A stretch of DNA of 64,000 nt from Gluconobacter sp. Gdi (GTDB lineage: Bacteria > Pseudomonadota > Alphaproteobacteria > Acetobacterales > Acetobacteraceae): NCBI RefSeq assembly GCF_014132155.1, contig NZ_BLJQ01000001.1, positions 310,001 through 374,000 on the forward strand, written 5' to 3'. Of the stretch, positions 1,715 through 61,544 are shown piece after piece. The position numbers and the translations under genes were made by a program. The stretch's first letter is position 1; every line of letters begins with the position of its first letter. The notes below the pieces were generated by a model. It saw nothing but the letters and a program-made list of their open reading frames with translations. It ran no database searches and was not told where the DNA came from.

Positions 1715-1754
1715 AAAAAGCGCCTGCTCTCATGAGGGAGCAGGCGCTTTTTTT
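1715..1754 (+). terminator. Intrinsic terminator after purF, probably bidirectional
   Basis: A perfect 15-base stem pairs 1715-1729 with 1738-1752 around an 8-base loop. It is flanked by A-rich and T-rich sides, so it can stop purF on the plus strand and the convergent phytochrome gene, which ends at 1773, on the minus strand. Confidence 0.92.
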
Positions 1755-1772
1755 GTGCTCAGACAGATGCTT

Positions 1773-31078: not shown

Positions 31079-31169
31079 AAATCAGTCCCTCCATAAGGTT
31101 TCCACCCAGACAGGCGGAAAGCATGTGGCGGGCCGTGGAAGTCCTGGGAAATCTTGGATGGAAAACCGC

Positions 31170-31231
31170 AGGGCCTCTTTAGCGCAATTATTTATCCTCG
31201 CCGCAAGCCGGCCGCTCAAATCACGAGGATG
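31170..31231 (-). promoter_or_regulatory. SAM-II (SAM_alpha)-like riboswitch in the metZ leader
   Basis: On the minus strand the leader has a 7-bp P1 (ATCCTCG at 31230-31224 with CGAGGAT at 31200-31194). Its loop contains CGUGAUUUG and GGCUUGC. The 3' tail has AUAAA followed by GCUAAAGAGGCC. These conserved words in this order are the SAM-II signature. GGCC in the loop can pair with the 3' GGCC to form part of the P2 pseudoknot, although I could not fit every expected P2 pair. It lies about 90 bases upstream of the metZ start. Confidence 0.85.
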
Positions 31232-31261
31232 AAACGGTCTTTATGGCCATTTCACGAGCGG

Positions 31262-31347: not shown

Positions 31348-31421
31348 GCGGGTGTAGTTCAATGGTAGAACGGCAGCTTCCCAAGCTGCATACGAGGGTT
31401 CGATTCCCTTCACCCGCTCCA
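31348..31421 (+). tRNA. tRNA-Gly (anticodon CCC)
   Basis: A 74-base tRNA with encoded CCA. Acceptor GCGGGTG pairs with CACCCGC. The D stem is GTTC/GAAC, the anticodon stem GCAGC/GCTGC encloses TTCCCAA, so the anticodon CCC reads GGG. The variable loop is four bases, and the T stem GAGGG/CCCTT carries the TTCGATT loop. All four stems close, including one G-T pair in the T stem. Confidence 0.97.
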
Positions 31422-51831: not shown

Positions 51832-51880
51832 AAGGCGCGTCATTGGAGGGGAATTTCCTCTCCGGTGCCGCGCCTTTTTC
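51832..51880 (+). terminator. Intrinsic terminator after ftsH
   Basis: An 8-bp base stem AAGGCGCG/CGCGCCTT (51832-51839 with 51869-51876) encloses a second GGAGGGG/CCTCTCC pairing and runs into five Ts. It lies only 33 bases before the glmM start, so glmM needs read-through or a promoter within ftsH or this gap. Confidence 0.8.
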
Positions 51881-51912
51881 TTATCTATCGAGACAGGCAG
51901 GATTTCATAACC

Positions 51913-60055: not shown

Positions 60056-60319
60056 TTACATGGAGCGAATGGTGTTCCGGCGCGGCGCGCGGCGCTGACG
60101 CTGCTGGTCCTGCGGTTGGGCGCTCGGGTTGGCGGCGCGGGTAGCCTTTTCACGGGCTGCGGCACGGAGTTCAGTTTCCAGCTCCTTGATACGGCGCTGG
60201 ACGCTCTCTTTCAGAGCAGGGGATGTGTGAGACTTCATGGAAGCAAGTGTTTCCTTGAGGTCCCGAAGCTGCTTTTCCTTCTCTGCCTGGTTACGGCGGA
60301 TAGGCTGATTGTCGGACAT
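60056..60319 (-). CDS. Small basic coiled-coil protein of unknown function
   Basis: An 87-residue protein, MSDNQPIRRNQAEKEKQLRDL..., with a charged helical or coiled-coil region (about 10-62, heptad-like KEKQLRDLKETLASM and LKESVQRRIKELETELRAAAREKA) and a Gln/Arg-rich basic tail (QPQDQQRQRRAPRRNTIRSM). The composition suggests nucleic-acid or ribosome binding, but no family is recognised. An ATG seven codons upstream (60340) could also start it. A predicted three-way-junction RNA ends just before that ATG. Confidence 0.65.
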   Translation of the reverse strand: MSDNQPIRRNQAEKEKQLRDLKETLASMKSHTSPALKESVQRRIKELETELRAAAREKATRAANPSAQPQDQQRQRRAPRRNTIRSM

Positions 60320-60366
60320 CTGTCCGTGGAATGCGCGCATGGTCTTGGTCTTTCAGCACGAAACGC

Positions 60367-60429
60367 CAGAGGCCTCCGCATCATCACTGAATGCGGAACG
60401 GTGCGCGAATGCACACCGGGCAGCCTCTG
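60367..60429 (-). promoter_or_regulatory. Predicted three-way-junction RNA in the leader of the small basic gene
   Basis: Read on the minus strand, stem A pairs CAGAGGC (60429-60423) with GCCUCUG (60373-60367). Stem B is an 8-bp hairpin, CGGUGUGC/GCGCACCG, with an AUUC loop and one G-U pair. Stem C pairs UCCGCAU with AUGCGGA around nine bases. Junction strands are about 4, 1 and 1 bases. At least 22 pairs form in 63 bases, ending 26 bases before the ATG at 60340. I know no named class that it matches. Confidence 0.55.
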
Positions 60430-60446
60430 AAAGGTCATGATCGTGA

Positions 60447-60464
60447 GGGCGGATCAGTCCGCCC
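60447..60464 (-). terminator. Short perfect hairpin after hisC
   Basis: GGGCGGA and TCCGCCC pair perfectly around a TCAG loop, starting nine bases past the hisC stop. There is no U tract, so it is either a weak terminator or part of the structured intergenic leader. Confidence 0.45.
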
Positions 60465-60473
60465 AACTGTGGT

Positions 60474-61544
60474 TCAGGATCGGTTTGTGAGAATGATGGC
60501 CCGCAGGGCGTCAATCAGGCGTGTGCAGGCCTCGTCCGTTCCGATCGTGACGCGTAGCCAGTTCTGGATACGCGGGGTTGAAAGATGCCGCACCAGGATC
60601 GAACGCTCGCGCAGGGCGCTCGCAACCGATCCGGCCGGATGCGCCGGGTGGCGCATGAGAATGAAGTTGGCACAGGATGGAAGGACTTGGAAGCCGAGAT
60701 TTTCCAGTTCAGGGACAAGTGTTTTCCGGCTGGCAATCACTCGGGCCGTAATCTCTTCCAGCCAGTCCGTATCCTTGATGGCGGCAATGGCCCCTGCCTG
60801 TGCCGGGCGTGAAAGCGGATAGGAGTTGAAACTGTCCTTCACCCGGATCAGGCCCTCAATCAGTTCCGGTGAACCAATTGCGAAACCGACACGCAGGCCT
60901 GCCAACGCGTAGGATTTGGAAAGTGTCTGCACGACCAGAAGGTTGTCATAACGCTTCGTCAGTTCGATAGTCGAGTCGGCACCGAAATCCACGTATGCTT
61001 CGTCGATGATGACCGTCCGATCCGGGTGGCGAAGAGCGAGCGTTTCGATCTGCTCAAGCGAGAGGGCCAGACCCGTATTGGCGTTGGGGTTGGCAACGAC
61101 AACGCCACCGCAGGGGCCATCATAAGCGTTGATGTCGATCTCGTAGTCGTCGTTGAGCGGGAACTGCTTGAAGGGCTGTTCAAACAGGCTGCAATAGACC
61201 GGATAGAAGCCGTAAGTGACGTCCGAGAAGTAGAGCGGTGCGTCATCGTGAAAGAGGGCACGGAAGGCGTGAGCCAAGACTTCATCGGAGCCATTTCCAA
61301 CGAAAACCCGGTCTGTTGTGACACCGAAGCGCTTCGCGATGGTTTCACACAGGATTGTTGCAGTTGGGTCCGGGTAAAGGCGAAGGTCGTCCGTTGCAGT
61401 CTCTCGGATAGCCTCTAGTACCCGCGGGCTCGGACCATACGGAGACTCGTTCGTATTGAGCTTCAGCAGGTTGGTTAGTTTAGGTTGTTCGCCAGGGACG
61501 TAAGGGTCCAGAGCGTGGACGCGTTTGTTCCAGAAGCGGCTCAT
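60474..61544 (-). CDS. hisC: Histidinol-phosphate aminotransferase
   Basis: A 356-residue class I/II PLP aminotransferase for histidine synthesis. LKLNTNESPYGPSPRVLEAI, NGSDEVLAHAFRAL, ANPNANTGLALSLEQI, DEAYVDFG and the Schiff-base Lys210 in QTLSKSYALAGLRVGFAIG are family blocks. Aromatic amino acid or imidazole-acetol transaminase activity may overlap. It overlaps the ankyrin-protein gene upstream (ATGA). Confidence 0.95.
   Translation of the reverse strand: MSRFWNKRVHALDPYVPGEQPKLTNLLKLNTNESPYGPSPRVLEAIRETATDDLRLYPDPTATILCETIAKRFGVTTDRVFVGNGSDEVLAHAFRALFHDDAPLYFSDVTYGFYPVYCSLFEQPFKQFPLNDDYEIDINAYDGPCGGVVVANPNANTGLALSLEQIETLALRHPDRTVIIDEAYVDFGADSTIELTKRYDNLLVVQTLSKSYALAGLRVGFAIGSPELIEGLIRVKDSFNSYPLSRPAQAGAIAAIKDTDWLEEITARVIASRKTLVPELENLGFQVLPSCANFILMRHPAHPAGSVASALRERSILVRHLSTPRIQNWLRVTIGTDEACTRLIDALRAIILTNRS

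Follow-up and report, generated by a model that had tools for sequence, protein, structure and literature searches.

The gap between hisC and a small downstream gene of Gluconobacter folds into what is, on the evidence of compensatory changes among related leaders, a real and selected RNA structure; covariation, and not folding energy, proves it to be more than chance. Modelling of the leaders and analogy with known messages suggest that it may be a cis-acting intercistronic structured RNA that serves as an insulator and mRNA stabiliser, a reading to which we give a probability of about 0.5. The element persists in architecture and position under a changing sequence, and it offers a good test case for whether folds in intergenic RNA work as insulators and stabilisers rather than as sensors.

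Locus and architecture of the intercistronic fold

The locus was analysed within a window of 64,000 nucleotides (the whole stretch of DNA under study) from Gluconobacter sp. Gdi. The minus strand carries, in this order, a gene for an ankyrin-repeat protein, hisC, a 133-nt gap and a 94-codon open reading frame, which is convergent with a glycosyltransferase-like gene on the plus strand (Table 1).

Unconstrained folding of the minus-strand gap yields hairpin A and a three-way junction at 60366-60430. The junction places 26 bp in 65 nt (P1 with 9 bp, P2 with 8 bp and P3 with 9 bp and a bulge), and its 3' edge lies 26 nt ahead of the ATG of the small gene. The first-pass annotation had described a compact three-way junction of at least 22 bp in 63 bases on the transcribed strand, ending 26 bases before the ATG, and a further hairpin at 60447-60464. 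Its coordinates and its compact junction were right, the spacing to the ATG is as it stated, and the MFE fold returns the additional hairpin. Its inventory of the fold was incomplete: hairpin A and the junction stand, and the outer stem, P0, had been overlooked. P0 pairs 5'-CAUGA-3' (60439-60435) with 5'-UCGUG-3' (60361-60357) in the window, and CAUGA with UCRUG across relatives. It forms without constraint in many, though not all, individual leader folds; in one set of leader folds it was imposed as a constraint.

Table 1. Coordinates of the genes and RNA features at the hisC/small-gene locus.
Feature	Position in window	Strand	Basis or remark
hisC, histidinol-phosphate aminotransferase, upstream gene	60474-61544	-	356-aa ORF; Pfam PF00155, E=4.7e-67
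hisC/small-gene gap, 133 nt	60341-60473	-	
Hairpin A, 7 bp, just past the hisC stop, without U-tract	60447-60464	-	MFE fold
Short linker joining hairpin A to P0, unpaired in most leader folds	60440-60446	-	leader folds
P0 5' strand, CAUGA, nearly invariant	60435-60439	-	91% identity between lineages
P1 5' strand	60422-60430	-	fold and alignment
P2 hairpin, 8 bp, unconserved 4-nt loop	60399-60418	-	two-sided changes in 7/8 pairs
P3 hairpin, 9 bp and bulge	60375-60397	-	two-sided changes in 9/10 modelled pairs
P1 3' strand; GGAGG spans it and the end of P3	60366-60374	-	fold and alignment
P0 3' strand, UCGUG in window, UCAUG in most leaders	60357-60361	-	leader folds
GAAAG, weak Shine-Dalgarno-like, outside the fold	60350-60354	-	tail conserved in A1/A4; predicted mostly unpaired in window leader
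Small gene, 94 aa, basic helical protein	60056-60340	-	start backed by conservation from M1

The junction core is more stable than every one of its 200 shuffles (z = -4.9), and the whole gap has a z-score of -3.9. When all 1,828 stretches of the whole window were ranked by folding energy on both strands, the gap region came 31st; by folding energy alone, the region is unusual, not unique. Inspection of two higher-ranked stretches identified them as strong intrinsic terminators with U-tracts (1715-1755 and 51835-51885), the former of which reads as bidirectional.

Covariation and conservation among Gluconobacter leaders

Each distinct Gluconobacter leader was cut from the hisC stop to the ATG and folded individually. 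All of them return this layout, despite strongly diverged stems. The P3 loop and upper stem vary in length between leaders. A covariance model was built from 14 oxydans-clade leaders only, aligned with MAFFT without structure guidance. This model located the window leader in the same place with E=5.3e-10 and recovered other leaders at 2e-10 (L050), 1e-9 (L049), 5e-8 (L033 and L091) and 2.7e-4 (L127); at the hisC/small-gene locus of other genera it found nothing.

Compensatory changes in homologous gaps, for which the first-pass annotation had asked, are present. In an alignment of 21 leaders that was fitted to the structure, and is hence biased towards it, pairing is kept in 96.8% of pair cells, and two-sided changes occur in 28 of 39 pairs, values that none of 500 shuffles reached. 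Sliding the partner by 1-3 columns in this alignment left only 38-50% of the cells paired. The six modelled pairs of hairpin A are paired in 100% of the 21 leaders, four of them with two-sided changes. The unguided MAFFT alignment of the clade gave 97.8% paired cells and seven pairs with a two-sided change.

Because the leaders are related, both alignments were compared to a tree-based null, in which substitutions were re-placed at random on the tree with their number held fixed for each branch and each class (paired or unpaired). Pairing in the 21-leader alignment (96.8%) exceeds this null (mean 69%, maximum 81%), as do its compensatory branch events (about 34, against a null of 4.6 and a maximum of 11). 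For the unguided alignment the corresponding values are 97.8% against 85% (maximum 94.5%) for pairing, and 4.4 against 0.9 (maximum 4) for compensatory events. In an R-scape-like test of each pair, in which single pairs are underpowered with 21 close relatives, E<0.05 was reached by only 3 of 39 pairs, so covariation supports the pairs as a group. The five outer P0 pairs are almost invariant, and covariation lends them no support of their own.

Two observations bear on the strand. Leader pairs include 74 G-U cells against 8 A-C cells, and the reverse complement has a weaker z-score in 14 of 14 leaders; together these show the minus-strand transcript to be the selected molecule.

Identity between seven lineages is 91% in P0, 72% in the hairpin A stem, 46-58% in P1-P3 and 12-43% in loops and junctions. 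Spacing is held more strictly: 25 of 26 leaders have the end of P0 15-17 nt ahead of the AUG (21 nt in L049), and 33-36 nt separate the hisC stop from the start of P0 in nearly all Gluconobacter leaders. We infer that selection acts on architecture and placement, and not on the letters of stems or loops. The near-invariance of CAUGA, while the other stems turn over, suggests some sequence-specific recognition in addition to structure.

A GGAGG motif at the P3/P1 boundary (60373-60377, minus strand) is found in 19 of 21 leaders, where it is buried in a helix; in the window it lies 32 nt ahead of the ATG. The published Shine-Dalgarno consensus of G. oxydans (PMC5756330) places aGGAg 3-14 nt from the start. 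GGAGG is therefore unlikely to be the ribosome site of the small gene, since it is buried and too far away by that consensus. The 3' end of 16S rRNA gave no pattern match in the draft genome, and GAAAG is a putative Shine-Dalgarno only.

Distribution of the fold and of the small gene

As judged by homology searches, the fold is confined to Gluconobacter in the wide sense, whereas the gap and its flanking genes are more widely distributed. A family-wide covariance-model search gave matches at the hisC/small-gene locus only in Gluconobacter in the wide sense. Five matches at other loci, with E of 0.007-0.05 per genome over 200 genomes, are at chance level and were rejected. Neokomagataea-type relatives keep what is, by model score and layout, a variant of the fold: a second covariance model scored leaders L003, L051 and L053 at about 2e-5 and L052 at 1e-3, and L126, which reached only E=0.88, nevertheless has a fold of similar layout. 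In other acetic acid bacteria hisC and the small gene are retained with a gap between them, but this gap folds differently, with z-scores that are mildly negative on average in the other genera. In Komagataeibacter (L062-L083), the gap has a structure of a different kind, in which a long, imperfectly paired hairpin is accompanied by a short one that includes the AGGA close to the ATG; this arrangement seems conserved within that genus.

Neither blastn nor the covariance model revealed further copies in the genome of the window, where the element is single copy, and none of the plasmids searched was found to carry it. A single copy does not fit a REP-like repeat or mobile element, of which several copies per genome would be expected.

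The 94-aa protein is present in 26 of 26 genomes of the genus. A single-sequence search recovered it in 59 of 150 genomes of the family and a profile search in 129 of 200 genomes of the order, where all among the matches listed are Acetobacteraceae. In most acetic acid bacteria examined, hisC lies directly upstream of the small gene, across a gap of about 60-190 nt. The core of the protein is nearly invariant throughout the Acetobacteraceae, and M1, R2, G6, Q7, S9, D10, N11, P13 and R16 are invariant positions; conservation that begins at residue 1 supports the start codon. The invariant N-terminus, MRxxxGQxSDNxPxxR, is predicted to be disordered, and the basic tail is variable. In the AlphaFold2 model, residues 16-34 and 41-70 form a helical hairpin, and the basic ends are flexible.

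Against Pfam and NCBIfam the protein had no match above cut-off, and there was no significant match to any RNA-binding family. The fold matches of the model were all non-significant, with ribosomal proteins among them, and one homologue gave a non-significant match to the L29 family (E=0.064). Family searches and AlphaFold2 thus agree with the first-pass description of a small, basic, helical and uncharacterised protein. The analysis highlights this strongly conserved protein beside hisC throughout the acetic acid bacteria.

Possible functions and relation to known RNAs

Openness of the start region (-14 to +6) was computed for the native leaders and with the body of the fold replaced by its own shuffles. 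In each of the 17 leaders tested, the native region opens at a lower energy cost than the shuffled mean; for the window leader the cost is 3.2 kcal/mol, against 7.4 kcal/mol for the shuffles, none of which (0 of 100) is as low. The effect is weak in L041, L047, L049 and L050, and in L041 and L047 42-45 of 100 shuffles were as open. As computed, the native fold leaves the start region open, and this fits an insulator.

According to the insulator and stabiliser model, hisC and the small gene would be co-transcribed, and hairpin A would cap the 3' end of the hisC part of the message. P0 and the three-way junction would form a self-contained body that stops about 16 nt ahead of the AUG, and such a body would bar upstream sequence from pairing with the ribosome-binding region. 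Cleavage may occur between hairpin A and P0, with the linker at 60440-60446 as its putative site, and the fold would then give the processed downstream message a nuclease-resistant 5' end. A role of this second kind, in message stability, seems likely in view of hairpin A and of analogous cases in which message decay is controlled by intercistronic or 5' stem-loops (PMC7509114) or, for iscR, by its stability element (PMC3896431); a stable, conserved structure is found between two genes of the same direction. Against this reading count the near-invariance of CAUGA in P0, the small openness effect in several leaders, and the three-way junction, for which a stabiliser and nothing more would have no obvious use.

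Control by a bound protein was the proposal of the first-pass annotation, in which the small protein regulates its own leader. The 94-aa protein, or another, would bind the junction and the P0 neck near the ribosome site and repress its own translation. Such a role would suit a fold placed 15-17 nt from the AUG with a nearly invariant P0, and a protein with a predicted helical hairpin, a basic tail and non-significant resemblances to ribosomal folds and L29. Throughout Gluconobacter the fold accompanies the small gene; other genera have the gene and lack the fold. The proposal is weakened by the mismatch between a protein core that is family-wide and a fold found only in Gluconobacter in the wide sense, by loops and junctions that hold no conserved recognition sequence, and by the lack of a significant RNA-binding family match; we regard it as possible, though unlikely. 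A more specific form, in which an Acetobacteraceae-specific family with the invariant MRxxxGQxSDNxP N-terminus, possibly of RNA-binding proteins associated with translation or the ribosome, recognises the P0 neck and junction and shuts off its own translation in Gluconobacter, appears doubtful. The free variation of loop and junction letters disfavours a sequence-reading protein and a ligand pocket alike. Another reading is that the element is a new class of riboswitch that senses a metabolite or an ion. Three-way junctions next to a ribosome-binding site are common among riboswitches, the element has such a layout, and no Rfam class fits it. There is no conserved unpaired core, however (loops and junctions at 12-43% against 91% for P0), no alternative pairing that would mask the start region was seen to be conserved, with native folds leaving that region open, and the single copy always precedes the same gene. 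A riboswitch is judged very improbable. A switch made by the linker CUUUCAG (between P0 and P1) and CUGAAAG in the Shine-Dalgarno region was rejected, as this pair is found only in the window and L127 and is absent in other lineages.

The position directly behind hisC and the compact, stable shape would also suit a 3'-UTR-derived sRNA that acts in trans, with the P0 region and tail free, and examples of such RNAs in Rhodobacter are given in PMC8625941. This would leave the constant spacing to the downstream AUG unexplained; no U-tract terminator follows the fold, and no conserved single-stranded seed is seen besides the start region. In its main text, PMC5756330 treats its 18 novel intergenic transcripts from G. 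oxydans as ORFs, and no hisC transcript is named there. An origin as sRNA is judged quite improbable. Hairpin A is close behind the hisC stop and, as noted, the folding energy ranks only 31st, as would be expected of a hisC terminator or attenuator, or of a chance fold in a G+C-rich gap. No hairpin of the gap is followed by a U-tract, which the real terminators of the window (1720-1755 and 51835-51885) have, so the region is not an intrinsic terminator, the alternative named in the first-pass annotation, and compensatory evolution excludes a chance fold. Taken as one, these two explanations are very improbable. A coding gap was also rejected: among closely related species the AUG in P0 shifts freely in frame relative to the main AUG, and the open frame from the P0 AUG ranges from 17 to 177 aa with no Shine-Dalgarno ahead of it.

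Searches against the 4,227 families of Rfam 15, at gathering and permissive thresholds, gave no match to the gap, in keeping with the first-pass view that the fold belongs to no nameable riboswitch class. A literature search for a described conserved RNA did not retrieve it. On these searches and its phylogenetic range, the fold is an undescribed, genus-level RNA of the intercistronic or leader structural type. A structured RNA absent from Rfam is thus found in every examined genome of an industrially used genus, and its alignment and covariance model are ready for use.

Several ribosomal proteins repress their own translation via structured leaders. Like the gap, these leaders set a structure by the start codon of a gene for a small basic protein; unlike them, the 94-aa protein belongs to no known family, its RNA binding is putative, and the fold is limited to one genus while the protein is family-wide. 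The best Rfam score of the gap was to the iscR stability element, RF01517 (13 bits, against a gathering cut-off of 40). Both are structured intercistronic RNAs in a polycistronic message (putatively so for hisC), but the iscR element comes from another operon in another group of bacteria. Its effect on iscR is linked to the sRNA RyhB (PMC3896431), of which there is no sign at the Gluconobacter gap. In the Rhodobacter puf operon, intercistronic hairpins give message segments of differing stability, and 5' stem-loops slow decay (PMC7509114). The puf hairpins likewise lie in an alphaproteobacterial operon. Their effects and those of 5' stem-loops are experimental, whereas the gap is known from structure and evolution, and it differs from them in its three-way junction at a fixed distance from the AUG. 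The positive control of the Rfam search was a SAM_alpha (SAM-II) riboswitch at 31158-31237 on the minus strand (67 bits). Like the gap element it is a cis-regulatory RNA (a candidate one in the case of the gap) of the same genome, but it is described by a covariance model and its aptamer is defined, whereas the gap element is without a conserved unpaired core. A tRNA lies at 31348-31418 on the plus strand.
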